Shown here piece by piece: positions 5,769 to 21,918 of a DNA stretch of 21,918 nt; the stretch's first letter is position 1, and each line of letters begins with the position of its first letter. The notes beneath the pieces are model-generated. The model searched no databases. It was not told where the DNA came from and saw only the letters and a program-made list of their open reading frames with translations. The translations under genes and the position numbers were made by a program. Where the stretch lies: positions 1-21,918 of IMG/VR virus record IMGVR_UViG_3300025883_000011; one strand, 5' to 3'. Origin of the DNA: a virus.

Positions 5769-6518
5769 TCACTGAAGTTCGTCCTTCACTGTCGTGTAAA
5801 CCACCTGTGAGCGCCAGGGCTCTCCGGTCGCGGAGACGCCTTCTGCCTGCGCCTCCCATTTGCCCGGCGTCTCGTACACGCCATCCCCCGTCGTCGTGGT
5901 GTACGTAGCGAAGCCGCTGCCCACGGAAATGGCGGTGTTCACTTGGTAGTTCGTGTCCGTGTCCCGGTTGTAGAAGTTGACCACCAATCCAGTTGAGCCC
6001 ACCAGCTCCGCGTCCGCCATCAGCGTCGCCCCGCGGTATACGGGCAGCGCAACGGCGTCCCCCTTGTGTCCCGTGTAGACGCTGGGCGTGACGAGGACGG
6101 GGGAGGCGCAGTCCGTGCCCGGCTCGTACACCGCCAGCAGCGCCACGGTCTGCGCGTTGATGGCGTTGATGATGGCCGTGGTGTCCAGGCTCACCCCGGC
6201 GTCCGCAATGACCAGCATGTCGGAGACGTAGAGTGAGCCGGTGATTTCATATTCCACCATGAACACGTCGCCCACGGCCGCATTGAGCTGAGAGACGTCG
6301 AGGGCGTACTCATACTGTCCCGGCGCGAGCGTGTCGCTCACCTCCGTTTGCGCCGCTTGGCGCGTCGTCCACCCGGAAGGCTTGAAGGTGAAGTCGGAGA
6401 AGTCGAGCCAGTTGGCGCCCTGCCGAAGCGCGACGACCGGAGATAGGCCGGTGTCACCGGACGTGAGCGTGAGCACGAGCGGGAAAGCGGTGTCGGTGGG
6501 GAGCGCTTGGACAGTCAT
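5769..6518 (-). CDS. Baseplate-upper-type protein with Ig-like module
   Basis: This 249-residue protein has two parts. Residues 1-108 form a beta-rich domain (MTVQALPTDTAFPLVLTLTS to VSDMLVIADA), of a type common at the N-terminus of phage fibre-associated proteins. Residues 112-245 hold a helix (TTAIINAINAQTVALLAV), a cysteine, then an Ig-like block: YTGHKGDAVALPVYRGATLM, TGLVVNFYNRDTD, GVYETPGKWEAQAEGVSATG. The same module occurs in the partial gene at the left end of the window. The frame is open for 12 codons further upstream, but ATG at 6518 overlaps the previous gene as TGATG with GAGGG ten bases ahead, so I take that as the start. The role is probably attachment of fibre parts (inference). 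Confidence 0.75.
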   Translation of the reverse strand: MTVQALPTDTAFPLVLTLTSGDTGLSPVVALRQGANWLDFSDFTFKPSGWTTRQAAQTEVSDTLAPGQYEYALDVSQLNAAVGDVFMVEYEITGSLYVSDMLVIADAGVSLDTTAIINAINAQTVALLAVYEPGTDCASPVLVTPSVYTGHKGDAVALPVYRGATLMADAELVGSTGLVVNFYNRDTDTNYQVNTAISVGSGFATYTTTTGDGVYETPGKWEAQAEGVSATGEPWRSQVVYTTVKDELQ

Positions 6519-8353
6519 CAGTCTGAAACCCTCGTGTACTCGATGGTGAGACACAGCCGAATCGGAATACCGTTGCCGTTCGCGTCCAGCGTCGTCACAA
6601 AGAAGTTGAGCGTATCGTCAGCCGCAAGGACGTCGGTGTCAAAGGTCGTGATTTGCTTGAGGTAGGCTTTGTTCGTGGTGCCGTCCACGGTCCAAGCGGG
6701 ACTGCGAAAGACGCGGGTTTGCGTCGGCGTTGCTGTCGCGCCTTCTGTCAACGGTTGCTTCCAGCAATCCCAATACAAGTCGTGCGTACTGTGCGCGCCG
6801 CTTGGGGTCCAGTAGAACGTGACGCGCTCCAGCCGCGCCTTGTAGGGGAAGTAGATGCCGCCGTCCCAACGGTCGAAGGTCGGGTCCGTGTCCAACGTGG
6901 TCCCGTCGCTTGTGGAGCTGCCGCCAGAGTTGCTCCAGGGGTCGTCACCCATGAAGCCTTCGTTGTAATGATAGTAGCGCCAGATGTCCTCTGCCGGAAC
7001 CACGCGCGCGGTGATGCGCTGCGTCTCGCGGGCGAGCGTCACCGTGTTGTTTTCGTCGTCCTTGAAAACCGCCGAGGTGGGCACCGTGTCTTGCACGCTG
7101 AAGTCGCCGTGTCCCGCTGGAACAGACGGGAGGCTCGCCTGCTCCTTGAAGCGGATGCGCTTCGGATTGATTTCGACTTCGGCAGTGACCGAGCCGTTTG
7201 CGCCGTCGTTGAACTTCGCGCCGGGGTCGGTCGTTCCGTCTTGCTGTATTTCGAGGACGGGCTTGTTCGTGCCTGCGCCAGAGTCGGACTTCTGCTTTTC
7301 AAGAGTGAGGGGAGTTATCGCGTTCCCGCCATCGTGAATCAGAATGTCATCGTTTGCGCCGAGACTGACTTCGTTGTCACCTCGTTGAAGGACCGTCTCA
7401 AGACCGTCCGCAGTTGGCTCCGAGTAGGGCGCAAACGAGATGCGCGCGCCGGTTTCAATCTTCGCCGTCGTCTGTCCCCGGCTGATGATGGGGAGCTTGA
7501 AGTACGCGCCCGCATTGGTGGTCGAGCCGTTGCCCTCGAAGTTCGCGCTGCGTGTGAGGTCCCCGATTTGCGAAAGGCGGAGGTGGCTGTTGACCAGCGA
7601 CCATCGAAAGGACGCGCTGGTCACATCGAGACCGGCTGCGTCCACGCGCGGGATGTACATGATGGTCGCCAGCGCCGGGTCTGCGTTGTTGAGCCGGAAC
7701 TTCCCAACGCCGGGGTCCCCGTCCACGGTGGAGGAGTCGTACTCGAACTCCGCGAAGCCGAGCCGCGTCTGGTCGAACACCGTGGAGATGTCCACGCCGT
7801 CGAGGAGGAGCGCACCCTTCACGTCCGTCGGCGTGGCAGCCGCACCAAGCTCCAGCAGAGACGTGTTGAACGGAGCAATCTTGACGAGCCCGTTGTTCGC
7901 CCCGCCGTTGCCATAGCCTGCGAACACGTAAACGTCTCCGCCGTAAGGTCCGTCCTGCGCGGTGCCGCCGTTTATCCAAAGATGCCCGCCGCCCTGTAGG
8001 TCGCCGACGGCGCGCGTGCGGACGCCGATTGCATAGGAGGCCGGTGCCGCCGTGTCGAGCTTGGGAATGAATAGGATGCCGTTGCTCTTGAACACCATCC
8101 TGCGCGTGTTGTCAGCGTTCCGAACCTCGACTGCGTGGTCGGTATCGGATTCGATTAGGACGTCGAGCGCGGGAAGGTTGCTCGCATCCCCGCTCTCCGC
8201 CTTCGTGTTCACTAGCGTTAGGAGTGAGACGTTGGCCGCTTGGTCGCGGAGGATTACTGGGTTGGCGACCGGCGCGTCCACATCGTTGTCCGGCGTCGGC
8301 GCGTTGATGGTGTCGTCGAGGGAGGAGGGGACTGGAAGGGATGCGTTGGCCAT
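6518..8353 (-). CDS. Tail fibre-like protein with internal repeat
   Basis: This 611-residue protein resembles long phage fibre proteins. After a disordered start (residues 1-35, many prolines and aspartates), residues 45-75 (LTLVNTKAESGDASNLPALD) reappear in altered form at 349-380 (LTLEKQKSDSGAGTNKPVLE), an internal repeat of about 30 residues. Residues 110-160 carry glycine-rich turns such as GGHLWINGGTAQDG and VFAGYGNGGANNG. Residues 412-440 show PAGHGDFSVQDTVPTSAVFK, a pattern frequent in fibres just before a C-terminal tip. Residues 450-611 form a different beta-rich block rich in Trp and Tyr, likely the tip. ATG has AAGGA upstream. The stop overlaps the next start as TGATG. Confidence 0.75.
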   Translation of the reverse strand: MANASLPVPSSLDDTINAPTPDNDVDAPVANPVILRDQAANVSLLTLVNTKAESGDASNLPALDVLIESDTDHAVEVRNADNTRRMVFKSNGILFIPKLDTAAPASYAIGVRTRAVGDLQGGGHLWINGGTAQDGPYGGDVYVFAGYGNGGANNGLVKIAPFNTSLLELGAAATPTDVKGALLLDGVDISTVFDQTRLGFAEFEYDSSTVDGDPGVGKFRLNNADPALATIMYIPRVDAAGLDVTSASFRWSLVNSHLRLSQIGDLTRSANFEGNGSTTNAGAYFKLPIISRGQTTAKIETGARISFAPYSEPTADGLETVLQRGDNEVSLGANDDILIHDGGNAITPLTLEKQKSDSGAGTNKPVLEIQQDGTTDPGAKFNDGANGSVTAEVEINPKRIRFKEQASLPSVPAGHGDFSVQDTVPTSAVFKDDENNTVTLARETQRITARVVPAEDIWRYYHYNEGFMGDDPWSNSGGSSTSDGTTLDTDPTFDRWDGGIYFPYKARLERVTFYWTPSGAHSTHDLYWDCWKQPLTEGATATPTQTRVFRSPAWTVDGTTNKAYLKQITTFDTDVLAADDTLNFFVTTLDANGNGIPIRLCLTIEYTRVSD

Positions 8354-9610: not shown

Positions 9611-11872
9611 CTATAGAATCAGACTGATGGGGTTGTTCGAGAAAGTGACCAACGTGACAATCCATTGCTGCGTTGGACAAATGGTGAGCAAGAGTTTTTC
9701 AAAGGCGTCCCGACTGCCCTCCGGGACGTCTGCGGGCGCCGGGAATACCTCACCACCAATGTAGAGGAAGAAGGGCCAGTACGCCGGGTCGTCTGGCACC
9801 GGCGGCGGCGCGCGTTTCGTGAGGTCTTTGTTGACCAGGTAGAACACGTCGTTGGCCAGCAAGTCAGAGCAGACGGCGCTCGTGTCGCTCTCCTGGTTTG
9901 GTGGCTGCTCCCCACACTCTGCGTCCGAGTCTCCGCATTGCGTCAACCCAATGAGGGGCTGGTTCGTGTAGTCGCGCGGGTCCCTTGGCTGCAGACGGGA
10001 ATACTGGTCTATCACCCTCGTGTTGCGGTCGAGGACATACAGGTTCTTGCTGTTCGGGCTAAGACAAATGCCGCTCGGGTTACTGAAGCCCGGGTCTAGG
10101 CTGCTGTCGAACGAGGCCGTCGTGATGTCGTACTGGACGGCCAGCGTGTACTTGAGCGCAAGGTTCCCGGCGTCGTCCGCAACCCACATGGAAAACCCGC
10201 TGTCCCCAAACCAGAGTCCGTATGGCGCCGTCGTTTCTGCCGTGATGTACGTCTCGCCCGCGTAGACGCCGGTCGTGATGTCCCACGGCGAGCTGAGGTT
10301 GTATCGAACCACGACACCGCTGGCGCCTGCGTTCTGGCCGCAGACCCAAAGGGCGGTCCCGTCGGGCTTGAAGAACATGTCCCCCGTCACCGTTGGAATG
10401 TGCGCGGACACGTCCAGCTCGTCCCCGGTTGCTGAAAGCGTCGCGACGTCCCAGGGAGTGAAAAGCGAGTACGAACGCACCTTGTCCGTGTCGCCGTAGA
10501 TGAACATGAGCGTACCGTCCTCCGAGAACGATATGCCGGTGGGGTTGCCCTCCTGAACGCCCACGCCGCCGAAGGTGCCAACGGTGGTCGTGCTGATGTC
10601 GAACGGGGTGGCTAGGTTGCCCTGCACGATGAGGTCGAACTGGCCGTGCGCCGTGATTACCATCTCGCCGTCTGCGCGCATGTACATCGCCTGAGGCTGA
10701 GTTCCGCCCCCAGAAAGAAAGAACGACTTGCCGGTGTCGCGGTAGTCGCTGACGCTGCGGCTGTAGCGGAACACCGTGTCGGCGTTGCTCCCGACGATGT
10801 ACGTGTCTCCCGTTGCCTGCCGCACGAACATGTCTTGCGGAACGGTTTCCTCGTTTGAAACGTCACCGATTTCGACTGGCAGCCCGGCGGTTGAAATGTC
10901 GTAGGGGGTGCCGAGCTTCCACTGCCAAATGGAATCTGAGGCCGCGCTGATGGCCTCGACATAGTTGCCGTCTCCGGTGAACGCGACGCCGGTCATGCCG
11001 GTGTCCGCGCCGCTCGTGTCCATCGCGACGCCGGAGTAGTTGTAGCTGGTCAACGTGTATGGAAAAGGCAGCTCGTACTGATAGATTTTGTTGTTCTGCT
11101 GCCCAATCACCAAAAGCAAGCTCCCGTCATCGTTGAACGTCATCCCGCGCGGAAGGTTGTCCTGCGGCGAGACGAAAAGAGTTTTGCTGGCGTAGGTTGC
11201 GCTCGTGATGTCCCACGGAGTTGGGACGTTGTATTGATAAATGACCTGGTTGGTGTTGACCCCAAGCATGAACATCGTGCCGCCGTCCGCGCTGAACATG
11301 ACGGCCATTGGACTGGTGTTTTGTGGCGACGTGTCTTTGACAACCGGGCTCCCAAGCGTCGAGACGTCCCAAGGCGTCGAGAGCGTATAGCCGTTGATGT
11401 CCTGGCCCGTGTTGCCTGCGACATAGCATTTGTCTCCGGCCGCAGAGAACCAGAGGCCCGTGGGGAAGGTGTCCTGGGTTCCCACGCTGCCGGATTCGAG
11501 TGAGTAGGTGAGTCTCGTTTCTGGTTCTGTTTCCCACCATTCATGGACGTACGCGTCGAAGCCGGCTGCCTGCAGCGTGTCCTGAATGTACTGCGGGTCC
11601 TGGCCTCCCTGCGCCTGCCAGCGCGCCGCCAGCGCAAGCCTCCGCGCCGTGTCTGTCCCACCGCCGTCTAGCTGAAACTGCTGCTCCCACTTCTCCAGCT
11701 CTCGCGTCGTCTCGGGGAAGATGTCGAGCCACACGTCATCAACAAACTCCACCGCGTCCGCGGTCGGGCTTTGCGCCAGCGCCTCGAACAGCTTCCGCAG
11801 CTGCTTCTCCGCAACCAAAGACCAGGCTTCGGTGCGCGGAAGAAGATGCTGGAACTGCCGAAAGAATCTCAT
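9611..11872 (-). CDS. gp48/gpI-type baseplate protein with an inserted ten-repeat beta-propeller
   Basis: This 753-residue protein appears to be a Mu gp48 (YmfQ, DUF2313) or P2 gpI type baseplate protein interrupted by a propeller. Residues 1-118 match the family start: LLPRTEAWSLVAEKQLRKLF, then DIFPETTRELEKWEQQFQLD, TARRLALAARW and a helix ending in AAGFDAYVHEWWE. Residues about 120-627 contain ten blades of about 51 residues, with marks such as PTGISFSEDGTLMFIYG and YSLFTPWDVATLS. Residues 628-753 look like the rest of the baseplate protein: a cysteine pair (CGDSDAECGE), then AYWPFFLYIGGEVF, SRDAFEKLLLTICPTQQWIV. The usual family size is near 200 residues, close to the sum of the two ends. 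It follows the fibre-like propeller gene after three bases. Confidence 0.78.
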   Translation of the reverse strand: MRFFRQFQHLLPRTEAWSLVAEKQLRKLFEALAQSPTADAVEFVDDVWLDIFPETTRELEKWEQQFQLDGGGTDTARRLALAARWQAQGGQDPQYIQDTLQAAGFDAYVHEWWETEPETRLTYSLESGSVGTQDTFPTGLWFSAAGDKCYVAGNTGQDINGYTLSTPWDVSTLGSPVVKDTSPQNTSPMAVMFSADGGTMFMLGVNTNQVIYQYNVPTPWDITSATYASKTLFVSPQDNLPRGMTFNDDGSLLLVIGQQNNKIYQYELPFPYTLTSYNYSGVAMDTSGADTGMTGVAFTGDGNYVEAISAASDSIWQWKLGTPYDISTAGLPVEIGDVSNEETVPQDMFVRQATGDTYIVGSNADTVFRYSRSVSDYRDTGKSFFLSGGGTQPQAMYMRADGEMVITAHGQFDLIVQGNLATPFDISTTTVGTFGGVGVQEGNPTGISFSEDGTLMFIYGDTDKVRSYSLFTPWDVATLSATGDELDVSAHIPTVTGDMFFKPDGTALWVCGQNAGASGVVVRYNLSSPWDITTGVYAGETYITAETTAPYGLWFGDSGFSMWVADDAGNLALKYTLAVQYDITTASFDSSLDPGFSNPSGICLSPNSKNLYVLDRNTRVIDQYSRLQPRDPRDYTNQPLIGLTQCGDSDAECGEQPPNQESDTSAVCSDLLANDVFYLVNKDLTKRAPPPVPDDPAYWPFFLYIGGEVFPAPADVPEGSRDAFEKLLLTICPTQQWIVTLVTFSNNPISLIL

Positions 11873-11875
11873 TCC

Positions 11876-12949
11876 CTACGCGCCCACAACTCGACTTGTC
11901 GAAAACAGGTACGCTTCCCCGTTGTCCACGACGACCATCATGGTCCTCTCGTGGTTGACGTTTATTTTGGTGATGGTCTGCGTGCCCGGCAAAAGCGTTT
12001 CGAGATTCAGGCTCTTGCTGTTGTACGTGCCCGTGCTGATGTCGAACGGGGTTGAAAGAACGAACTCCTCGATGGATTCAGCAGTGCCACAAATCCAGAA
12101 CAGCCGACCGTCCTTGCTGATGGCCAAGCTCGTCGGCACCGTCTCCTGAAGTTGGTTGAGGGAGTTGGTGCTGTATGTACCCGTGCTCAAGTCCCAGGCG
12201 GTCGAGAGTGTGTACTCGTAGATTTGATTCGAGAGCCTTGCAACGACATATATTTTCTTGCCGTCGTAGCTGATGCACATGCCGGTCGGGTCGTTGCCGG
12301 TTGTCTCCGTGGACGTGTCCAGCTCATTGGCGTCCTTTGTCGCGCTGGCGATGTCCCACGGCGTCGGGCAGGTGTAACTCGCGACGTCCCCGCTGAGTGA
12401 ACCGAGAACAAAGAGCTGCGTCCCGTCATCCCTCCAGGCCATTTCCTCTGGCCCGTTGTCGAACGCCGTCGTGTTGATGCGGGTGGAGTCTCCGTCGTAG
12501 GTCGCGGACGAGATGACGTAGGGAAGAGAAAGCGTCCACTGCCAGATGTACGTACCGGAGGCGATGATGAGCTTGGTCCCGTCCGGGCTTATTATCCCGC
12601 TTCGGGAGAGGGCTATCTGCGTCGTCGTGTCGTACAGCGGGTCGAGCCAGACCGCAGCGTCGAGGTCGAAGGGAAGGACGAGAAGATTGCCGGGCGTGCC
12701 AAGGCGGACGTCATCCGCGTCCATGTACTGAGAGGCGCCAACTTTGTCCGGTGTCCCGGTTGCGGTGATGCCGACCCTGGAGAGCTTGTACTGGAGGTAT
12801 CCCCAGAGGTCTGCGAGCCAATCCTTCTCCAGCGGCGTCCCCGTGCCATCGCCGGTCGTGATGACGTTTTGCGGCTTGCCGAGGGGATAGCCAGTTGGGT
12901 CGCTCGTATCAATCTGGCCGGTGTACTTTGTCGATGGGATGATTGCCAT
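11876..12949 (-). CDS. Fibre-like protein with five-repeat beta-propeller
   Basis: This 357-residue protein has two parts. Residues 1-80 resemble the N-terminal attachment segment of many phage tail fibres: TTGDGTGTPLEKDWLADLWG, then a helix and GTPDKVGASQYMDADD. Residues about 110-350 hold five repeats of about 50 residues with the consensus P-x-G-M-x-x-S-x-D-G-x-x-x-x-V, then Y-x-L-S-T-P-W-D-I-S. Examples are PTGMCISYDGKKIYVVA and YTLSTAWDLSTGTY. This repeat is a beta-propeller blade and closely matches those in the next gene. The gene lies between the gp47 and gp48 homologues, which are normally adjacent in Mu. A binding or decorating role at the baseplate is inferred; the ligand is unknown. 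Confidence 0.75.
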   Translation of the reverse strand: MAIIPSTKYTGQIDTSDPTGYPLGKPQNVITTGDGTGTPLEKDWLADLWGYLQYKLSRVGITATGTPDKVGASQYMDADDVRLGTPGNLLVLPFDLDAAVWLDPLYDTTTQIALSRSGIISPDGTKLIIASGTYIWQWTLSLPYVISSATYDGDSTRINTTAFDNGPEEMAWRDDGTQLFVLGSLSGDVASYTCPTPWDIASATKDANELDTSTETTGNDPTGMCISYDGKKIYVVARLSNQIYEYTLSTAWDLSTGTYSTNSLNQLQETVPTSLAISKDGRLFWICGTAESIEEFVLSTPFDISTGTYNSKSLNLETLLPGTQTITKINVNHERTMMVVVDNGEAYLFSTSRVVGA

Positions 12950-12958
12950 GGGGTTTCC

Positions 12959-14152
12959 TTACGCGAACGTGATGGTGCCGAGCTTTGCCAGTTCGCCTTC
13001 GTCTAGGGTGTAGCCGTTGATTTCTGTGAGCCCGCGGAAGAGGGAGACTTGCGCAACGGTGCCACCCACTGTCTCCGCCGCCTGGTTCACGATGCCGCCG
13101 ACGCTGCCCTGCGTCACCCGGTCCTCGCGCGGCAGGAAAGAGAGGCCGACGATGAAGGGCGCCCGCGTGCGCAGCCAGTCGTCCAACGCGTTGGTGACGG
13201 CAGTCTCCGCGGCCGACAGGTCCGCGGCCTCCAGCCCACCCACGACAACGCCAAAGCCGGTGCGCGTGATGGGCAGGGTGTTGACGAGGGCGTTGGCCGG
13301 GCGGTTCGTGGCCAGGCCGCCGCTGTCCAGCGCAATGGCGGTCGCCACGGCGTCCAGCTGCGCCTGGGTGGGGATGCCGTCTGCGGAGCCGCTGCTGGCC
13401 TCCGTGGCCTCTACGTACACGTCCACCTCCCCTGGGTCGCCCGTGTACGGCCAGACCGAGAGAATGCCCGCCACGTCGGCGCCCCAGATGCGATAATCAG
13501 CGTACGCGCCTCCCTGCGGCTGCAGCGCTGCCCGCTCGATGACGCGCTGGCGGTACACCTCGGGGTCCTCGGCGTCGGCGCCGGTGACGGTGGTACTGGC
13601 CACCGTGGCATCCTCCGCGACATTTGCTTGCGGGTTGGCGAAGGAGATGGTGTCACCGTCGTTCAGGTTCCCCAGCGTGCCCGCGCCACCGTTGTCCACC
13701 TGGTCGCTGCTGGCGCGCACGGTGATGGTCTTGGTTGCTGCGTCCAGCGTCACCGCAGAGAGCGTGAGGTAGAGCACCCCGGTCTCCGACCGAAGGAGCT
13801 GAGAGCCGGCGGGGAGGGAGCCCGTTTGGTTGAGGACGGAGATGGTGGCCGTGCCCTCCCAACGCGTTGCGTCATTGGGTTTGCCGACGCCCAGTAGCAC
13901 GCCCCACTCGGTGAGCGGGTTGACCGTCTTGCCGTTGACGACCGTGTCCTTGGACGACGCCGTGGCCACGAACATCTGCAGCAGCGAGAAGCCGGCATAC
14001 TTGTAGACGAGGATGAACACGGCCCCGAGCGCCTTGGCGAGCACGCGCGAGAAGAGCTTGGGGAGGAACGGTACGGTCTGCGAAAGCTTCGACTCTATCT
14101 GGTTGACGATGTTGTCGCTGATTTGCGCAATCGTGGGCGTGCTGAGGCTCAT
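12959..14152 (-). CDS. Baseplate assembly protein J (Mu gp47-like)
   Basis: This 397-residue protein is the main wedge subunit of the baseplate (baseplate J-like family; P2 gpJ, Mu gp47, T4 gp6). The N-terminal region is helical, then residues 82-130 give EWGVLLGVGKPNDATRWEGT and the strand-rich SLPAGSQLLRSETGVLYLT. DAEDPEVYRQRVIERAALQP (residues 193-212) and GGAYADYRIWGADVAGILSV are the strongest family signatures. The C-terminus has PITRTGFGVVVGG and a helix DLSAAETAVTNALDDWLRTR that matches the family end domain. The ATG overlaps the gp46 stop; the TAA is followed by AAGGAAACCCC and the next ATG. Confidence 0.93.
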   Translation of the reverse strand: MSLSTPTIAQISDNIVNQIESKLSQTVPFLPKLFSRVLAKALGAVFILVYKYAGFSLLQMFVATASSKDTVVNGKTVNPLTEWGVLLGVGKPNDATRWEGTATISVLNQTGSLPAGSQLLRSETGVLYLTLSAVTLDAATKTITVRASSDQVDNGGAGTLGNLNDGDTISFANPQANVAEDATVASTTVTGADAEDPEVYRQRVIERAALQPQGGAYADYRIWGADVAGILSVWPYTGDPGEVDVYVEATEASSGSADGIPTQAQLDAVATAIALDSGGLATNRPANALVNTLPITRTGFGVVVGGLEAADLSAAETAVTNALDDWLRTRAPFIVGLSFLPREDRVTQGSVGGIVNQAAETVGGTVAQVSLFRGLTEINGYTLDEGELAKLGTITFA

Positions 14153-14583
14153 AGTGTCACCGATACCAGGAACGTGAACGAGTATTCATTGTCGCCAAGC
14201 TGGATGTCCACGGTCAGCTCTAGCCTGTCGTACGCGGGCACGGAGGCGGAGACGCGCACCTCATCCGCCACCCCCTCGGAGGTGAACCACGCCAAGTCCA
14301 GCCCCGCCGCGTCCTCGATGCGAAGAACGTCTGAGGCGAGGTTCTTGCTCGCTTGGATGGCGCCTTGGAAGCGGCTTCGGTACTGCCGCACCGGGTCCGT
14401 CTCCGTCCGGTTGCCCCACCATTGGAGCGCGTCGGTGCTCTCGCTCCCGTTGTCCTCGATGTTGCCGCCGAGGAGGGAGAGGTAGGCCGCAGTCTCGTAG
14501 CCGACCGGCGAAAGCTCAGGGTTGCCCTGCACGAAGTTGATTTCGCCGCCGTCGCCCGTTTGATACAGCCGAACGTCAGTCAT
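14149..14583 (-). CDS. Baseplate wedge protein (Mu gp46-like)
   Basis: This 144-residue protein matches the phage GP46 family. A run GYETAAYLSLLGGNIEDNG (residues 28-46) is followed by the characteristic ALQWWGNRTETDPVRQYRSR. After it come helices and closing strands ending LGDNEYSFTFLVSVTL. GP46 is the Mu counterpart of the gpW/gp25 wedge proteins at the baseplate perimeter and lies next to spike and baseplate J genes, as here. Both ends overlap their neighbours by ATGA, so translation is probably coupled through spike, gp46 and J. The WWG signature and position make the call solid. Confidence 0.87.
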   Translation of the reverse strand: MTDVRLYQTGDGGEINFVQGNPELSPVGYETAAYLSLLGGNIEDNGSESTDALQWWGNRTETDPVRQYRSRFQGAIQASKNLASDVLRIEDAAGLDLAWFTSEGVADEVRVSASVPAYDRLELTVDIQLGDNEYSFTFLVSVTL

Positions 14584-15119
14584 ACGCCCTTCACCTTGTC
14601 GCAGCCCACCGCGCCCGGGTCATAGGTCTTGTCGGGAACGTCCGATGTCCCAGCGAGCGTGCCGACCCCAGACGTGCCACCCGCGCAGACGTCGTGCGCA
14701 TGCTTGTGGTCGTTGTGCGCGGTCTTGAGCTTCTCTAGCTCCGCCTCCACCCGGTCGGCCCGCGCAATCAGCTCCTCGCACACGTCCTGGCCGATGTGCA
14801 CGAACTCCTCATCTGCCGCCATGCGGAGCGTGACCAGGACGGCGCCATCACTGTCTCGGGAGTACAGCCGCACCTCTCCGGGGTTGGCGATGCCCTCGTT
14901 CTTTGGGTCCACGTAGCCGAGAACCACCCAGCGTCCCGTCCCCGCCCCTTGCGTCACCCCCACGTAGTCGTCCTGCAGTGGCGGCGCGTCGATGCCGGCG
15001 GGTGCCACGTGGTCCGCAATCGCCGTGTCCTCTCCACCCGGGTCGAACTTGACGCCGATGACTTGCTCGCCCTCGATTTGCTCTCGAAGGAACTCTATGA
15101 CGGAACCAATCAATCCCAT
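14580..15119 (-). CDS. Baseplate spike protein (Mu gp45 / P2 gpV-like)
   Basis: This 179-residue protein is the membrane-piercing spike that attaches to the hub trimer. It has an OB-fold-like N-terminal half with GVKFDPGGEDTAIADHVAP (residues 22-40), DDYVGVTQGAGTGRWVVLGY (residues 50-69) and GEVRLYSRDSDGAVLVTL. The closely similar Mu gp45 family has the same layout. After residue 110 comes a short coiled-coil (CEELIARADRVEAELEKLK) and then HNDHKHAHDVCAGGTSG. The HKH and HAH triplets resemble the HxH iron-binding motif at spike tips, although a simple histidine-rich HTH-like turn is common in this family and iron binding is not shown. It overlaps the gp46-like gene by ATGA. Confidence 0.85.
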   Translation of the reverse strand: MGLIGSVIEFLREQIEGEQVIGVKFDPGGEDTAIADHVAPAGIDAPPLQDDYVGVTQGAGTGRWVVLGYVDPKNEGIANPGEVRLYSRDSDGAVLVTLRMAADEEFVHIGQDVCEELIARADRVEAELEKLKTAHNDHKHAHDVCAGGTSGVGTLAGTSDVPDKTYDPGAVGCDKVKGV

Positions 15120-16150
15120 GGCAGCACCTCAGGAAGCTGACCGCTGAACGCACCGGGTAACACGAGTCCCAGGGACGCCGTGGTCGCTTCCTTGTTTTGT
15201 CTCAGCACGACGTCTCGAATGAGCATCGTGGTCTTGTTGTACACCATCGCCCCGGGCGCTTCGAGGGTGAGGAGCGTGTTGGGAGCGAACAGTCCGCCGG
15301 CCGGGTCGCGCCACGTCGGCAGCTCGACGACGTATGCCACCATGTTCCCAAACATCCGCGCCATGCGCGCCTGGACGGCAGTGGGGAGGTCGGGCGCTCG
15401 CACGTCGTCTGCGTTGTAGCTCAGCGGTCGCACGACCGACGGGAGCTTCGGGTTCTGCACCGTGTACCGGCTGCCGCGCCTGCCCGCCTTCGTCTTGGCA
15501 AAGCCCGTGATTTCAGAGAAGTACGCTTGCGGGCTGAAGGTGGCGGCGATGCTTTGGCACGGTTGCTCCCCCTCCCGGAGGGAGACGACGGGGACGCCGG
15601 CGCCCACGGACTGGAAGAAGCGGAGGCGCCCGGCCGCGGTGTTGCTGATGACGAGACTGCGCTGCTTTGCCAGCTTCGTGAGGAAGTCGAACACCTTGTC
15701 CGTCCGCTCCATCTTCACGCGCCGGAATGCGGCGCCGGCGGGCGCGTCGAACTCTACTTGTACGCCAAAGGGAGCAGCGAGCTGGTCAGCGATTTGCTGC
15801 AGCGTCATCCCGTTGAACTCGATGGGGAACGCGGACTCAGGCGCGTTGACGTCGGAGAGCACGGCGGGGAGGGCGTAGCCTTGGCACTCCACCGTCTTGC
15901 TGCTCGGCGTCGTCTTTGGCTCCACGCCCACGAGTTGCCCGGAGAAGAGCAAGTCGTTGTCCACCTCCACCGTCAACGGCTTGAAGGTGAAGGGCTTGAA
16001 GGTGTTGCGGAAGTCCTGGTCGTCCGGTTCAAAGACGCTGGTGAACGCGCAGAGGTCAAAGCTGTCAAGAGAGAGCGTGAGCTCCACCTGTTCCCAGTAC
16101 GACCACCGCTGCCCGTCTATCTTGAGGACGACGTCATCCGTAATAGGCAA
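15110..16150 (-). CDS. Baseplate hub protein (Mu gp44 / P2 gpD late control D family)
   Basis: This 346-residue protein forms the trimeric hub that joins the tube end to the central spike. The N-terminus has the family layout, a strand VVLKIDGQRWSYWEQVELTL followed by LDSFDLCAFT. It then shows NDLLFSGQLVGVEP, a stretch TLQQIADQLAAPFGVQVEFD, and DKVFDFLTKLAKQRSLVISN, the last two typical of the gpD central domain. NTLLTLEAPGAMVYNKTTML near the C-terminus is also typical. The chosen start is TTG at 16148-16150. No in-frame ATG lies before the conserved N-terminal strand, and GGAGAAGGGGGA sits upstream. The gene overlaps its upstream neighbour by 17 bases and the spike gene by 10 bases. Confidence 0.88.
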   Translation of the reverse strand: MPITDDVVLKIDGQRWSYWEQVELTLSLDSFDLCAFTSVFEPDDQDFRNTFKPFTFKPLTVEVDNDLLFSGQLVGVEPKTTPSSKTVECQGYALPAVLSDVNAPESAFPIEFNGMTLQQIADQLAAPFGVQVEFDAPAGAAFRRVKMERTDKVFDFLTKLAKQRSLVISNTAAGRLRFFQSVGAGVPVVSLREGEQPCQSIAATFSPQAYFSEITGFAKTKAGRRGSRYTVQNPKLPSVVRPLSYNADDVRAPDLPTAVQARMARMFGNMVAYVVELPTWRDPAGGLFAPNTLLTLEAPGAMVYNKTTMLIRDVVLRQNKEATTASLGLVLPGAFSGQLPEVLPWD

Positions 16151-17408
16151 TCCGGTCCCCCTTCTCCAGCTCTAGGATTTGGGAGCCCGTCAGGTCGTTG
16201 TTGTTGATGAGACGGTTCAGCGTCTCGTCGTCTACATTGCCGTACACCTCGGACGCCACGTCCACGATGGTCCGATTCCGGCCAAGGACCAGCACGCGCT
16301 CGGAGAGCAGGGTGAAGGAAATCTCCACGACCAAGCCCGCCGCGAGGGCGACACTTTGCTGAAGGGTTTGGTAGGAGGTGCCCACGTCACACGTCAGCGC
16401 CGCGTACCCGGCCTCGCGCCACGCCACCCAGTCGTCGAACAGCTGGAGCACGGTGTCCGCCGCCGCCTGGGCGTCCGTGCGCGTCTCGAACTCTGTCTCC
16501 AACAGCGACACGAGCGTTCCGTTCACCGCCGCAGCCGCGCTGAGGTCCGTGAGGAAGAAATCGTTTGCGATATCGGTGGCTTCGAGCGGAAGGCTCAGCC
16601 CCACGGCGCCCGCCGGGTCCCCTGCTTTGCTGCCGAACAGGACCACCGCGAAGTCCCGGTATCCCAACACGCGGTCCACGAACCCGCTGATGGCCCGGCC
16701 CGGCAGCGCGATGAGGTTGCAGAGTTGCTGCGCCAGGTTCAGCGGCTGCCCGACCAAGATGTCCAGCGACAGGTTGATGGCGTCCTGCGCGTCCCGGAAC
16801 AGGTTGTTCACCTCCGTCGTCACCGCGGCCACCGTGCCCAGTGTCGCCTCAATGCCGGAGAGCACGTTCTGCGTCGTGGCCTTCAGGTTGCCTTGCGCGA
16901 GGAGCGTGGAGACGTCAACCGTGTCCTCGAACTGCGAGGGGCCAGTGGTGGAGATGAACTCTGCGGTACTCGCCTCCAGCTGGCTCCGCGCGTCCAGTTG
17001 GTTGGATGGGTAGACGAGCTTCGTGGTTTCCCAGAACGTGACTTGAATCACCGTCTGGTTGGCGCGCGTCTTGAGGTCGTCACGGCGGGAGATGGGGCCG
17101 AACGGAACCACGTCCGCCTCTCCATACAGCGGGTGACTCAGGCGCCCCGGCCCTTTCTGCAGCAGCGCCCGCTCAAACGTCGTGGCAAGCAAGTCGTGGT
17201 CGTCGCCGGAGAAGTAGCAGCGCAGGGGAAACTTCTGCGCGCCGAACCCGTTGTCTTGCACGTACGTCCCGTCCACCCCGGGGAACTCGAAGCCCGCCGT
17301 GCGCTTTACTGTTTCACGTGAAACATCTTCGTACGAAAAGACCAGTCCGGTGTCCGGCGAGTCGGGCGGGAAGTACGCGGCGGTTCGGAGTCTATCTTCC
17401 CAGGTCAT
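16134..17408 (-). CDS. Mu gp43-like tail/baseplate protein with LysM-like C-terminus
   Basis: This 424-residue protein has the N-terminal pattern of the family named DNA circularisation protein (DNA_circ_N; Mu gp43 or N). It shows FEFPGVDGTYVQDNG near residues 40-54, then FPLRCYFSGDDHDLLATTF and KGPGRLSHPLYGEADVVPFG near 85-104. Despite that name, Mu gp43 belongs to the tail and hub assembly. The last 60 residues (GRNRTIVDVASEVYGNVD, then LNRLINNNDLTGSQILELEK and GDRIAYYG) resemble a LysM or P2 gpX module, which in P2-like phages is a separate small gene. The ATG directly follows the tape measure stop. Codons 28-33 carry the perfect parS palindrome (residues VSRET). The end overlaps the hub gene by 17 bases. 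Confidence 0.82.
   Translation of the reverse strand: MTWEDRLRTAAYFPPDSPDTGLVFSYEDVSRETVKRTAGFEFPGVDGTYVQDNGFGAQKFPLRCYFSGDDHDLLATTFERALLQKGPGRLSHPLYGEADVVPFGPISRRDDLKTRANQTVIQVTFWETTKLVYPSNQLDARSQLEASTAEFISTTGPSQFEDTVDVSTLLAQGNLKATTQNVLSGIEATLGTVAAVTTEVNNLFRDAQDAINLSLDILVGQPLNLAQQLCNLIALPGRAISGFVDRVLGYRDFAVVLFGSKAGDPAGAVGLSLPLEATDIANDFFLTDLSAAAAVNGTLVSLLETEFETRTDAQAAADTVLQLFDDWVAWREAGYAALTCDVGTSYQTLQQSVALAAGLVVEISFTLLSERVLVLGRNRTIVDVASEVYGNVDDETLNRLINNNDLTGSQILELEKGDRIAYYG
17310..17325. promoter_or_regulatory. parS: Perfect parS-type ParB binding site
   Basis: The 16-bp palindrome TGTTTCACGTGAAACA is present without mismatch. This is the canonical chromosomal parS sequence bound by ParB (Spo0J) in bacteria such as Bacillus subtilis and Caulobacter. 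ParB loads at parS as a CTP-dependent clamp and spreads over flanking DNA. The site lies in the coding region of the gp43-like gene, where it encodes VSRET, one of the peptides such sites specify when they fall in a gene. The codons used (GTT TCA CGT GAA ACA) form an AT-leaning patch in a GC-rich gene. The sequence match is certain; binding in vivo is not shown. Confidence 0.75.
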
Positions 17409-19199
17409 CTACTCTGCCCCACTTGACGCGACGCGGAGCTTGCTGCTGTTCCGCGGGCGGTTGCTTGAGACTTCGGCGCGCCCCGTCTCGTCTCGGAGGA
17501 GGATGTTGACGTCCTCCTTCATTACGAAGTTCCCGCCCGGCCCCGGTGGCGTCACCTGCGGAGTGGTTGAGGGAGGGGGAGGCGGCAGGCCGCCGGTGTA
17601 CGACTCTTCTTCACCACCCCCGCCGAAGATGAAGTTGCCCATGCGCGCGGCCAAGCCGATGGGGTTGAAGCTGAGAATCTTCCCAATCATCTCGACGATG
17701 GTGCCGAGGATGGGTGAGATGCGGTTGGCGCCCTCCAGTATCGTTGACCAGAGGCTGCGAAGCATGATTTGCGCCTCCCGCCACGTGCCCACCAAGTCCT
17801 CCCAGAAGAACGCGACCAAGCCGATGGCTGTGAGGAAGAGGCCGATGGGGTTGGCGGCGATGGCCGCGGTGAGAACCCAAACCGCGCCCGCCAGCAGCTT
17901 GACGCCAACCGCCATGACAGAGAACACGCCCACGACGCGCGCAATGCGGGTGAGGACATTGATGATGAGCGGCCCGTTCTCCCGCAGGAACACGAGGAAG
18001 TCCGTTACGCCCTCCACGATGAGGTCCTTGTTCTGCCGCACCCACTCGGTGATGGACTGCACGATGCTGCGGAGGGGCGCCGCTGCTTCTTCGAAGATGG
18101 AAATCTTCACCCCCTCCAGCGTGGACTTGAGGATGGTCATGTCGCCGGTGAGCGTGTCCATGCGTATCGCAGCCATCTTCTTGGCCGCGCCAGAGGCGTT
18201 GTTCAGCTGCTTTGTCAGCTCGCCGAGGTTGATGCCGTTCTTGCGGTCGAACAAGTCCTTGAGGTTCGTGGCTGCCTTCTGTCCTCGCAGCCCGAACAGC
18301 TCCGCCATCACCCCCACTTGGTTCAGGTTGCCGCCACTCTTCTCCGCCAGCAGCGATATCGTTTCGATGACCTCGGGCAGCGTTTTCATGTCGCCCTCGG
18401 CTGTCTTGAAGCTGAGGCCGGCCTTCTTCATCGCCTTGGCAATCTTGGCCGGTGGCTTGGCCATGCGGGTGAGCATGGTGTTGAAGGAGCTGCCGGCCAC
18501 GCTGGCGTCTAGCCCCACGTCTTGCAGCAGCGCCACGCCAGCAACCGCATCCTCCAGCGGGACGCCCAGCTGCCGGGCGGTGGAGGAAACGTTCTTCAGC
18601 GACTCGCCGAGCGTGCCCATGGTCGAGTTCGTCTTGCTGCTGGCCAGCGCCAACACGTCCGCCACGCGCGCCGCCTCGCTGGTATCAAGCCCGAAACCCT
18701 TGAGCGCATTGGACGTGATGTCCGCCACCTCCGCCATCTCCAGCCCGGAGGCCGCGGCGGCGTCGAGAACTGCGGGAACAGCCTTCATCGTGTTCTCGAC
18801 ACCGAAGCCGGCGCGCATGAGGATTTCCATGGCCTGCGCGGACTCGGTGGCCGTGAACTTGGTGGTCTCCCCGAGCTTCTTGGCCTGCTCCTCCATCGCC
18901 GCTGTCTGTTTGCGCGTCATGAGCGCAACGGCGCCGACGTTGGTTATCGCCTGCTCAAAGTCCGCGCCGGCGCTGAGTACCTTGAAGGCAGCGAAGCCGG
19001 CCGCGGCACCAAAGACGAGCAGGCCCCGGCCGACCTTCTTGATGCCGCGGAGGAACTTGCCGGCCGCCGCGCTGGCCTGGCGCATGCTCCGCTTCACGCC
19101 GCGGGTGAACTTGCCAAGCCTCCCCTCCATCTTGGCAATGGGCGCGGAGAACTTGTCGATGGCCTTGAAGATGGCTTCGACGTTGAAACGCGTGGCCAC
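17409..19199 (-). CDS. Tail tape measure protein (TP901-type)
   Basis: The tape measure sets tail length and is passed into the host ahead of the DNA. Residues about 78-320 match the TP901 phage tail tape measure core. This includes ADFEQAITNVGAVA, then a helix with TKFTATESAQAMEILMRAGF, GLDTSEAARVADVLALASSK near 170-189, and GVMAELFGLRGQKAATNLKD near 296-315. Residues 400-465 contain strongly hydrophobic segments (around 411-433 and 434-465), and a glycine- and proline-rich linker (GGGGEEE, then PPPPP) leads to a C-terminal strand VNILLRDETGRAEV. At 596 residues it is short for the family; at roughly 0.15 nm per residue it would specify a tail near 90 nm. The start is GTG, which abuts the TAA of the frameshifted chaperone and has GAAGGGG upstream. 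The stop abuts the next ATG. Confidence 0.92.
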   Translation of the reverse strand: MATRFNVEAIFKAIDKFSAPIAKMEGRLGKFTRGVKRSMRQASAAAGKFLRGIKKVGRGLLVFGAAAGFAAFKVLSAGADFEQAITNVGAVALMTRKQTAAMEEQAKKLGETTKFTATESAQAMEILMRAGFGVENTMKAVPAVLDAAAASGLEMAEVADITSNALKGFGLDTSEAARVADVLALASSKTNSTMGTLGESLKNVSSTARQLGVPLEDAVAGVALLQDVGLDASVAGSSFNTMLTRMAKPPAKIAKAMKKAGLSFKTAEGDMKTLPEVIETISLLAEKSGGNLNQVGVMAELFGLRGQKAATNLKDLFDRKNGINLGELTKQLNNASGAAKKMAAIRMDTLTGDMTILKSTLEGVKISIFEEAAAPLRSIVQSITEWVRQNKDLIVEGVTDFLVFLRENGPLIINVLTRIARVVGVFSVMAVGVKLLAGAVWVLTAAIAANPIGLFLTAIGLVAFFWEDLVGTWREAQIMLRSLWSTILEGANRISPILGTIVEMIGKILSFNPIGLAARMGNFIFGGGGEEESYTGGLPPPPPSTTPQVTPPGPGGNFVMKEDVNILLRDETGRAEVSSNRPRNSSKLRVASSGAE

Positions 19200-19831
19200 T
19201 TACGACCCCTTCGGTTTCGTTAGCTCTTGCAACTCAGCGCGGCAGCCCTCGAAGTAGAAGGACACCTCACGCATCGTCATCGTGCGCGGGTCGGGAAGGG
19301 ACGTGTACAGACGGCACACCTGAAGAAACATCTCTGAGTAGACCGCCTGCACTGTGTGTTCCTTTCCAAGAAACGCGTCCTCCCCGTCTCGGACAAGGGG
19401 CGTCCCCGCTATTGAGCTAAAAAAATCGACGCGATTGCCATGCAGACTTTCAGGTCGCGGTTCTTCATGTTGGCAAAGAGGGACACGTTGGTCTTGGTCA
19501 TGTCGGCCATGACGCGGAACATCTTCGCAACGGTTTGGTCTTGTGGCTCTGCGCCCCTGTCGCTCCTTCTGGTCGCTCGTTTGTCCATTGCCATGTAGCT
19601 GGCGCCGGTTGGTTCGTAGAACGTGATGGGCTCCCCGCCGCCCGTCTTGGGACGGTAGACCGGTTGCCCATCTTCGTCGATAGAGAGGTTGCCCGAGCAT
19701 ATGCTTCTCACAAGAAGCCCGAGCTGCTGGTTGTCGTCCTCGTCTAACTCGCTCTCTTCTACGTCGATGTCCATTGCCTCGAAGAACCTGTGCAGCTCTT
19801 GTCTGGCAATCTCCTCGGAGACATCTGCCAT
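19200..19831 (-). CDS. Tail assembly chaperone, -1 frameshifted long form
   Basis: A -1 slip at 19418-19424 lets ribosomes bypass the TAG at 19409 and continue to a TAA at 19200-19202. This gives a fusion of about 210 residues: 138 codons in the first frame, then 72 residues beginning SSIAGTPLVRDGEDAF. The second frame has no good independent start near the junction and ends immediately before the GTG of the tape measure, as E/E' (P2) and G/G-T (lambda) arrangements do. The added tail contains a helical, aromatic stretch (AVYSEMFLQVCRLYTS) and MREVSFYFEGCRAELQELTK, a size and style typical of the domain that binds the tape measure and tube. The family role is known; the frameshift here is inferred from sequence and not measured. 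Confidence 0.85.
19409..19831 (-). CDS. Tail assembly chaperone, short (unshifted) form
   Basis: This 140-residue acidic protein lies between tube and tape measure, the position of the Mu gp41 and P2 gpE type tail assembly chaperones. These proteins bind the tape measure and bring tube subunits to it, and they are not part of the finished tail. It is rich in acidic residues near the N-terminus (EEIARQELHRFFEAMDIDVE, residues 6-25) and ends MAIASIFLAQ. The last codons include the slippery T TTT TTA, just before the TAG stop at 19409-19411. The ATG has AAGGAG six bases upstream. No domain name can be given from sequence similarity; the call rests on position and on the frameshift arrangement. 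Confidence 0.85.
   Translation of the reverse strand: MADVSEEIARQELHRFFEAMDIDVEESELDEDDNQQLGLLVRSICSGNLSIDEDGQPVYRPKTGGGEPITFYEPTGASYMAMDKRATRRSDRGAEPQDQTVAKMFRVMADMTKTNVSLFANMKNRDLKVCMAIASIFLAQ
19418..19424 (-). other. Programmed -1 ribosomal frameshift site T TTT TTA
   Basis: On the minus strand the reading frame is ATT TTT TTA GCT CAA TAG. The heptamer T TTT TTA is a classical X XXY YYZ slippery sequence, and a one-base slip back continues as AGC TCA ATA into the downstream frame. GC-rich DNA rarely has seven Ts in a row, so the run stands out. Downstream, GGAC (19402-19405) can pair with GTCC (19391-19394), while CCCC in the loop (19397-19400) can pair with GGGG (19382-19385). That is the layout of an H-type pseudoknot. 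The structure is my inference; the slippery site is seen directly. Confidence 0.88.
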
Positions 19832-19841
19832 GGTCGACTCC

Positions 19842-20225
19842 TTACTGCAGCGTCAGCTGTCCTGAGCCCATCATGCTGATGGTCGCTGTCGCGCTGGTGT
19901 TGCTGAAGGACAGCTCATCAGTGAGCGTGCCCGTGCCTTGATAGGTTGCCTGGGACGCGTACGTGATGGCCATGGGGACAGCGTCCGCCTGGTCCGCCAC
20001 TTGCTGGAGGAACTGCTGGTCCGCCCTCTCCTCGTCCACCTCCACCTGGAGGCCTCCGAGGGACCACGGGACGCGCGTCTTGATGGTGCGCGCCGTGCCG
20101 TCCCCGTTGGCCTGCACTTCGTTCTCGAAGCCACCGAGCTTTCGCGAGGTGTCCGCGTCTGCCGCCACCGGGAACAATCTCCCGTTGATGGAGACGCTTT
20201 GAATGCTTCCGCCTTTTCCTGCCAT
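19842..20225 (-). CDS. Tail tube protein (Mu gpM/gp40-like)
   Basis: This 127-residue protein matches the short Mu-type tail tube family in length, position and pattern. It has an N-terminal GKGGSIQSVSINGRLFPVA strand pair, a conserved region around residues 27-56 that includes GFENEVQANGDG and a proline-tryptophan turn, and a beta-rich C-terminus (ATISMMGSGQLTLQ). Tube subunits form stacked hexameric rings inside the sheath and provide the channel for DNA. The ATG follows AGGAG with six bases of spacing. The TAA stop sits just before the AAGGAG of the chaperone gene, so sheath, tube and chaperone form a tightly coupled block. Confidence 0.9.
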   Translation of the reverse strand: MAGKGGSIQSVSINGRLFPVAADADTSRKLGGFENEVQANGDGTARTIKTRVPWSLGGLQVEVDEERADQQFLQQVADQADAVPMAITYASQATYQGTGTLTDELSFSNTSATATISMMGSGQLTLQ

Positions 20226-20234
20226 CTGTTTCTC

Positions 20235-21722
20235 CTATGCCGCGACGGCTGCACTGCCGAAGTAGAAGCCGAAGTTGAGGGTCACGTCCGTGACGTTGAC
20301 GTTGCCGGAGAGCTGGACCGTCACAGAGACGTTCAGCCGCTTCGGGTTCTGCGAGTCGATGGTGGCCACGATGGTTTTCTTGGCCGCCGCCGCGTCACTG
20401 ATTTGCCCTGCCAGCTCCAACCCGTCGAGCACGGTCGCCACGGCGGCGACGGCTTGCTTGGGTTGCTTGATGTAGCTTTGGACGGCTGGGCTCCCGTCGG
20501 GAACGAGGATGGCGCCTTGCCAGTCGTCCTTCGAGAACTCGATGTCTAGGTTGAAGATGACATTGGACAACTTCACAATGTCCGCGTCAAAGCGGAAGGC
20601 CGGGATGGGCTCGCCCACCGGCGCCCAGAAGGTGATGATGTTGGAAAGCTGAATCTCGCTGTCCACAATCTCCACCGTGCTTGAGCCCGCCTTCATGGCC
20701 GCGTCCCGCTGCGGGAACGTCCACTGGTCCGCATCTGCGCCGGGCGTCAGCCCGTCCGCGCGCATGCCGCTGTAGAGCCGACCCGGTTCGTTGTTGGCGC
20801 GCCGCGCAATGCGCGCAAGCTGCCGCGCGGCCACCTGGAACGGGAGGTCGATGGAGCCCGGTGCGACCAGCTGCCCATTCACCTTGTCCGTCGTTCGTGC
20901 GGCGCTGACCGTGGTCGCGTTCGCCACCGTGGTCGCCGTGTTGCCCGTGTAGCAGCGGAACGGTTTGCGCACCGTGGCGCCCCACCGCAGCTCCCCCTCG
21001 GCCTTGAACAAGTCCATGGTCGCGGTGTCTGCCGCGTCCATGCAGTTGTGGATGAGCGTGTACCAGACATTCCCCATCTGCGCGATGGCAGCGGTGACGT
21101 CTGGATTGACCAACCCGCCTGTCGGCTGGGTGAAGGCAAACGAGACACCCACGCTCGGCCCCTCTACGGAGACGACGATGGCGTTGGACGAAACCCCTTC
21201 CCACTTTGCAGTGAGGTCCAGAACCGTGGTGTTGTCCACCGCGATGACTGGCATATCCAACACGGCATTGATGGCCGCCTCCATACTCGTGATGATGCTC
21301 GCCACGGTGTCAGTGCCCGTGATGACAAACTCGTCGCTGAGGATGTTGTTTACCCTCACGCGGTACGCGCCGGCTTCTGTCGCCGTGCCACTCGGGGTGA
21401 TGTCTCCAGCTGCGGCCACGCCGCTCGCATCATCGTCCAACGGGAACACGGTGAGCGGGATGGTCCCGATGCCGTCTCCGTTGGAGGGGAAGTATTCCTT
21501 CGCCGCCAAATGTAAAGGAGAGCCGAACCCGTAGGTTGCTCCCACCTCCGCGGCGCTAAAGACCACGGCCTTGTCGTTGCTGTAGGTGGCTTGAGCTGCC
21601 GTCGTCCCTTGTCCGAACACCCCGATTCGCTGCGGCACGAATAGCGCCGCACCCCCTCGCAGGTCTTTGAACACGGGCTCGATACCGAGCACGCGTGCCA
21701 CCGCGCTCACATCAATAGTCAT
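20235..21722 (-). CDS. Contractile tail sheath protein (Mu gpL-like)
   Basis: This 495-residue protein is the contractile tail sheath subunit, which polymerises around the tube and contracts to drive it through the host envelope. The N-terminus carries the family pattern of a glycine-alanine turn followed by VPQRIGVFGQG near residues 29-39. The C-terminal third contains FDADIVKLSNVIFNLD and ends in alternating beta-strands (VQLSGNVNVTDVTLNFGFYF), as expected for the domain that holds the tube and links neighbouring subunits. Length suits Mu-type sheaths (about 495 residues). The start is an ATG preceded by AGGAG seven bases upstream. Its TAG stop overlaps the AGGAG of the tube gene, which follows after nine bases. 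Sheath followed directly by tube is the standard order in contractile phages, which makes this one of the safest calls here. Confidence 0.93.
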   Translation of the reverse strand: MTIDVSAVARVLGIEPVFKDLRGGAALFVPQRIGVFGQGTTAAQATYSNDKAVVFSAAEVGATYGFGSPLHLAAKEYFPSNGDGIGTIPLTVFPLDDDASGVAAAGDITPSGTATEAGAYRVRVNNILSDEFVITGTDTVASIITSMEAAINAVLDMPVIAVDNTTVLDLTAKWEGVSSNAIVVSVEGPSVGVSFAFTQPTGGLVNPDVTAAIAQMGNVWYTLIHNCMDAADTATMDLFKAEGELRWGATVRKPFRCYTGNTATTVANATTVSAARTTDKVNGQLVAPGSIDLPFQVAARQLARIARRANNEPGRLYSGMRADGLTPGADADQWTFPQRDAAMKAGSSTVEIVDSEIQLSNIITFWAPVGEPIPAFRFDADIVKLSNVIFNLDIEFSKDDWQGAILVPDGSPAVQSYIKQPKQAVAAVATVLDGLELAGQISDAAAAKKTIVATIDSQNPKRLNVSVTVQLSGNVNVTDVTLNFGFYFGSAAVAA

Positions 21723-21738
21723 TCACAAACTCCTGTCC

Positions 21739-21918
21739 TTAGGTGACATCATACTCTGCGGTGAGGTAAATCTCGCCGGTTTCCTTTCGCAACACTTCAA
21801 CGCCGATTTGCTCCAGCGGTGCGCCGGCTGCAATGGGCGCCTCTTCGTAGTAACGAACGCCGAGCCTGAGGCGCTGGGCGTGAACCTGGGTGGCTGCCTT
21901 CTCGTCCAGCGGCGGGCG
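21739..21918 (-). CDS. Partial gene upstream of the sheath (C-terminal 59 residues)
   Basis: An open reading frame enters from the right edge and ends at a TAA at 21739-21741, giving 59 residues without an internal stop. The visible end reads VEVLRKETGEIYLTAEYDVT, which looks like closing beta-strands. I do not recognise the family. In Mu-like tail operons the genes just before the sheath encode neck or tail-terminator proteins (Mu gp37-like) and a small DUF2635 protein, so a tail completion role is a reasonable guess from position only. The stop lies 16 bases before the sheath start, and the sheath ribosome binding site sits in that gap, so the two are almost certainly co-transcribed. Confidence 0.7.
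   Translation of the reverse strand, partial: RPPLDEKAATQVHAQRLRLGVRYYEEAPIAAGAPLEQIGVEVLRKETGEIYLTAEYDVT

Follow-up and report, generated by a model that had tools for sequence, protein, structure and literature searches.

The window analysed here, the whole 21,918 nucleotides of IMG/VR record IMGVR_UViG_3300025883_000011, contains a parS palindrome of the chromosomal type, TGTTTCACGTGAAACA, which a scan of the window confirms as perfect over all 16 bp, as the initial annotation had reported (Table 1). No further match was found in the window when up to three mismatches were allowed (shuffled sequence gives 0.06). A chromosomal parS of Hyphomonas neptunium has the same 16 bp, and the site fits the consensus of B. 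subtilis (TGTTNCACGTGAAACA), C. glutamicum and B. cenocepacia chromosome I (PMC7022226, Table 1). Unlike these chromosomal sites, the window copy is carried by a phage, within a coding sequence, and neither ParA nor a canonical ParB gene was seen there.

The palindrome sits about 80 bp into a gene within a block of late tail genes. This gene had been described as a gp43-like tail gene, and the description is right: it matches the baseplate hub family of PHROGs (E 1.9e-44) and the Pfam family DNA_circ_N (E 8.6e-13). Homologues occur in Shewanella, Vibrio, Aeromonas and Acinetobacter phages. An AlphaFold model of the hub (12 sequences; too poor to rely on, mean pLDDT 58) places the parS codons at the end of a strand, ahead of a low-confidence stretch. 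Elsewhere in the window, the minus-strand ORFs at 3-818 and 5769-6554 have in common a module around 'VY(V/T)GHKGD..A.PVYR', and a tail-appendage domain seems to be duplicated there.

Table 1. Features at the parS locus, in window positions
Feature	Position	Strand	Remarks
parS, chromosomal-type palindrome	17310-17325	.	half-sites 17310-17317 and 17318-17325; present also in contig L002
Eight A/T-ending, mostly rare codons including parS	17307-17330	-	codon usage, GC3 count
Baseplate hub / DNA-circularisation N-terminal-domain gene	16134-17408	-	424 aa; PHROG 184, PF07157; parS at codons 28-33
Tail tape-measure gene, directly upstream of hub gene	17409-19199	-	PHROG matches

Codon usage and expected frequency

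The palindrome is read in frame as D-V-S-R-E-T, and codons 27-34 on the minus strand are GAA GAT GTT TCA CGT GAA ACA GTA (E D V S R E T V). By the window's own codon usage, every one of the six parS codons is rare, and together, given DVSRET, they have a probability of 1.2e-6. As to the AT-leaning codon patch noted earlier, just 3 of the 6779 eight-codon windows in the genes of the window have at most one G or C in the third position. Markov models of order 1 to 4, built from the phage DNA, predict about 1e-5 exact parS sites in the 40.6 kb assembled below, which is close to the initial estimate of about 5e-6 in 21.9 kb; the motif was, however, chosen out of very many windows, and this counts against reading the site as selected. 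The near-identical contig L002 has identical parS base pairs, so a sequencing error is unlikely.

The phage and its gene content

L002 (IMG/VR contig 3300028598_000006, also G001) is 99.99% identical to the window over positions 11236-21918 (10.7 kb) and reaches 18.7 kb further right. The combined span, with this extension (L138), is 40.6 kb and encodes sheath, tube, tape measure, hub, baseplate, capsid, portal and TerL. Named phage relatives are mostly 42-51 kb, so the 40.6 kb may be incomplete. The TerL search gave only distant relatives, Shewanella, Vibrio and Acinetobacter phages at most 49% identical among the matches listed; in viral contigs, TerL was found in the phage itself and in one fragmentary contig. 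No tRNA was found in the extension or in the 3 kb around parS.

The search for additional sites and for parA and parB that had been proposed yielded a single parS in the 40.6 kb, the one in the hub gene. Comparison of the ORFs of the window and the extension with PHROGs and Pfam turned up neither ParA nor a canonical ParB. Within the 40.6 kb examined, this is a host-type parS on a phage without canonical ParB or ParA. The arrangement thus differs from the parABS of phage-plasmids (the P1, N15 and mycobacteriophage type), where phage ParA and ParB genes lie beside parS. The idea that the element is a prophage residing close to the host origin is unsupported: the 40.6 kb showed no recognisable integrase, repressor or host flank, and two scans of genome contigs did not find any hub-gene relative in bacterial genomes. 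For want of such a relative, no host is inferred.

The extension carries a gene cluster (L138:10589-16683) with QueE, QueD, FolE, ArcS-like, queuine-TGT-like and QueC proteins, probably a 7-deazaguanine DNA-modification pathway, together with a ParB_N-fold protein (L138:15416-16351, minus strand). The likely start of the latter is an internal Met, which gives a product of about 200 aa. It matches PHROG 620, and its matches to TIGR00180 and Pfam ParB_N fall under the cut-off. Pfam recognises no helix-turn-helix or dimerisation domain in it, so this protein is probably not a canonical parS reader. The phage could in principle partition itself if this protein read the window site, and it does encode a ParB N-terminal domain. 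We consider this very improbable, because the product matches the N-terminal fold alone, its gene stands among the 7-deazaguanine genes, and no parA was recognised in the searched ORFs. A self-encoded parABS was rejected on these grounds.

Homologues of the hub gene

Alignment of gp43-like homologues, proposed as a check on conservation of the 16 bp, did not reveal any: parS is absent at the window position from 14 homologues of 40-45% identity and from a larger set of 77, mostly 38-47% identical to the window hub. No relatives of intermediate identity to the window phage were found. VSRET is retained by none of the 77, and the nearest homologue at these codons (L270) reads DVSREV, with five mismatches to parS. 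A scan of the whole contigs of 50 relatives found a one-mismatch site in G097, a two-mismatch site in G096 and no other. The site in G097 (L272:1837-1852; hub 43% identical) is TGTTTCACGTGGAACA; it encodes D-V-S-R-G-T in frame, close to the beginning of a gene for 82 aa.

These alignments bear on the possibility, raised initially, that the palindrome is a coincidence of coding for VSRET. Under this explanation the hub reads D-V-S-R-E-T, its codons spell parS by chance, and the site is without function even if ParB binds it. The homologues frequently read D/N-V-S-R/K-E/S at the parS codons, so most of the peptide pre-exists; V29 is nearly invariant. That none of the 77 has parS at this position also favours chance. 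At residue 33, however, 72 of the 78 sequences have V, F, I or L and just two have T. The window hub has T, as the parS codon ACA demands, so completion of the site required an unusual residue. The six rare codons likewise argue against coincidence.

The phi29-type class is marked by several sites or by conservation among relatives, and here there is one site and 0 of 77 homologues have it. Absence from distant homologues is weak evidence, since parS sites turn over quickly. A phage contig of GC 0.70 (L281) illustrates this. It has exact parS at 1572 and 3476, 1.9 kb apart, one of them in the leader of a head maturation protease gene. Its homologues of 61-79% identity have none, which indicates that sites appear and vanish fast.

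Distribution of parS in IMG/VR contigs

Exact parS occurs in at least 120 IMG/VR contigs, some of which are mutually related and some of which may be mis-called host DNA. The control palindrome TGTCTTACGTAAGACA occurs in none and TTTGTCACGTGACAAA in 11, seven of them in one repeated context, while the centre-swapped control TGTTTCAGCTGAAACA occurs in 33. Several sites are present in 17 of the 120 listed parS contigs, against 0 of 44 for the controls. The first parS site falls inside an ORF of at least 150 aa in 41 of the 120, against 73% of random positions. The 33 matches of TGTTTCAGCTGAAACA behave like random positions (26 in ORFs) and appear chance-like, so part of the in-gene parS matches in IMG/VR must be chance; this, too, speaks for coincidence in the hub gene. 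One search gave ParB_N matches in 3 of 46 parS contigs and another in 0 of 50; two of these matches exceed the cut-off.

Among contigs with GC of at least 0.6 the comparison is sharper. Here parS occurs in 18 of the contigs listed, in 12 of them in ORFs of at least 150 aa, and the three controls in 0. From the three controls and the relative Markov expectations, the chance share of GC-rich in-gene parS is roughly 6%, with an upper bound of about 18%; over all GC classes it could be larger. GC-rich phage contigs hold parS in head protease, portal and scaffold genes. On these counts, together with the codons and residue 33, coincidence is disfavoured for the window site, and we regard it as unlikely.

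The control TTTGTCACGTGACAAA has an observation of its own attached. It repeats in an AT-rich conserved context (about CAATATTTTTTGTCACGTGACAAATCTTTGAG) in L140, L141, L143-L146, L148 and L149, contigs with GC of about 0.43. This conserved palindrome is unexplained.

parS in named phages

A masked 18-mer BLAST search (E at most 10), which reports exact matches of 16-18 bp, found parS in 315 of 50,697 named phage records; these are records, not independent lineages. Two control palindromes gave 0 and 5 records, the latter all from one Erwinia phage family. The hosts include Listeria (87 records), Microbacterium (62), Arthrobacter (34) and Gordonia (25), with smaller groups from Bacillus (11), Lactobacillus (11) and Enterococcus (6). 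Phages of Escherichia and Salmonella, represented by at least 745 and 541 records in the collection, are not among the matches listed and have at most six records each.

The TTCC variant is found in 108 phage records, with Mycobacterium and Pseudomonas foremost. Pseudomonas phages carry TGTTCCACGTGGAACA, which is the P. putida consensus (PMC7022226). The M. smegmatis consensus is the TTTC form (PMC7022226), so TTCC in Mycobacterium phages does not cleanly match the host; nor do the ten Klebsiella records of the TTCC list fit. In the Butyrivibrio phages Arian and Bo-Finn (MN882551.2 and MN882552.2, 7379-7396) an exact parS is covered by a feature that the depositors named 'promoter', which may be a mis-annotation.

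In-gene precedents and related systems

The virulent phage phi29 has four copies of the one-mismatch form TGTTTCACGTGGAACA, which is compatible with the B. subtilis consensus, and PZA has three copies and one weaker site. The expected number of parS-like sites in these genomes at up to two mismatches is about 0. The phi29 site in gene 15 occupies the codons of a perfect parS in B103, BSP11, Goe1, hmny2 and Chedec 11, where the group reads N-V-S-R-E/G-T; the site of W1188 has one mismatch. B103 and Chedec 11 have 72% of bases in common, and 53% of codons at identical residues, yet agree at 16 of 16 bp of parS. Entrapment of phi29 DNA in spores is attributed to Spo0J, the B. subtilis ParB (PMC9437464). 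The phi29/B103 group resembles the window phage in having a host-type parS in a late gene, in the same reading frame as in the window. They differ in that phi29 infects a sporulating host and its four sites are near-perfect, and the window phage has one site in an unrelated genome.

The Microbacterium phages KaiHaiDragon, NoodlelyBoi and Gina carry GAT GTT TCA CGT GAA ACA in frame, the same codons as the window, in the variable linker of a helix-turn-helix gene. In a fourth phage, Tyrumbra (L278:1201-1218), both half-sites are changed symmetrically from TTTC to TTCC (TTCC/GGAA) relative to L275, L276 and L277. This change entails two amino-acid changes, S to P and E to G, and its symmetry despite them points to selection on the DNA, not the protein. 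These GC-rich phages with an in-frame parS, three of four with the identical six codons, are close in kind to the window phage. Unlike it, they keep parS across several phages, and in the gene of a DNA-binding protein instead of a tail gene.

Outside phages, the element SGI1 is a parasite whose parS mimics let it use the partition proteins of a partner. It gains stability from the borrowed ParABS of IncC plasmids via these sites (PMC10954446). There a helper plasmid supplies the ParB, and both binding and stabilisation were demonstrated by experiment (PMC10954446). In the literature searched, phi29 and SGI1 were the sole precedents found, plasmid prophages aside.

Discussion

The window parS is probably a real, selected orphan site for the chromosomal ParB of the host, placed in a part of a late tail gene that tolerates it. 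Of the three readings first offered, recruitment of host ParB is the best supported: host-type parS is in excess across phages, there are in-gene precedents in phi29/B103 and the Microbacterium phages, and nearly all of the carriers checked lack ParB. Membership of the window site in this selected class, ParB binding and benefit to the phage are what we infer from these comparisons. Because it is single and unconserved, the site is described as working like the phi29 type, not as a proven member. Its weight derives from the class that it exposes.

Chromosomal ParB forms parS-stimulated CTP clamps that slide on adjacent DNA, engage ParA and assist SMC loading (PMC12704722; PMC7022226). On the phage, host ParB with CTP would bind the palindrome at 17.3 kb and close as a clamp. 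Such clamps could slide for kilobases and coat much of the phage genome, which might then engage host ParA and/or SMC as the chromosomal origin region does. The likeliest gain, which we propose tentatively, would be help in positioning or segregating the phage genome as it infects or replicates. Alternatively, when an infection is slow or stalled, the genome could be kept as the host divides, comparable to the entrapment of phi29 in spores.

Several observations weigh against recruitment of host ParB. The window phage has a single site and phi29 has four, and most parS sites of the class lie outside long ORFs. If guanines are modified at position 7, in the major groove, by the 7-deazaguanine pathway, ParB binding could be hindered.

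Host ParB might serve a regulatory role instead. It would load at parS, slide, and silence or tune the late tail genes. Chromosomal ParB is usually a weak regulator, and the site is some way into its gene and away from a promoter; both count against regulation, which we judge quite improbable, although parS does stand within the late tail block and the Butyrivibrio records do label it 'promoter'. Long-range silencing on plasmid RK2 by KorB, a sliding clamp of the ParB family, is documented (PMC11790492). KorB silencing, however, uses the partner repressor KorA, of which no equivalent was identified in the phage.

It seems rather likely, though with somewhat less assurance than for the window site itself, that phages widely borrow the host centromere as a strategy, in which numerous unrelated phages, some of them virulent, have orphan parS sites matched to the host variant. 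Some of these sites would lie in codons of virion genes, and host ParB (with SMC and ParA) would handle the phage genome. The window phage would be a GC-rich tailed-phage case of this strategy. Phi29 and Spo0J are an established case; in the literature searched, nothing was found on how broadly orphan parS occurs among phages. This breadth appears to extend to hundreds of records, to Gram-positive and Gram-negative hosts, and to in-gene sites under selection at the DNA level. If the reading is true, host ParB clamps load onto phage DNA during many infections, which would explain how phages that do not integrate manage to position, untangle or keep their genomes. It would tie phage biology to the field of ParB-CTP and SMC, and phage parS may perhaps be usable as a signal for host prediction.
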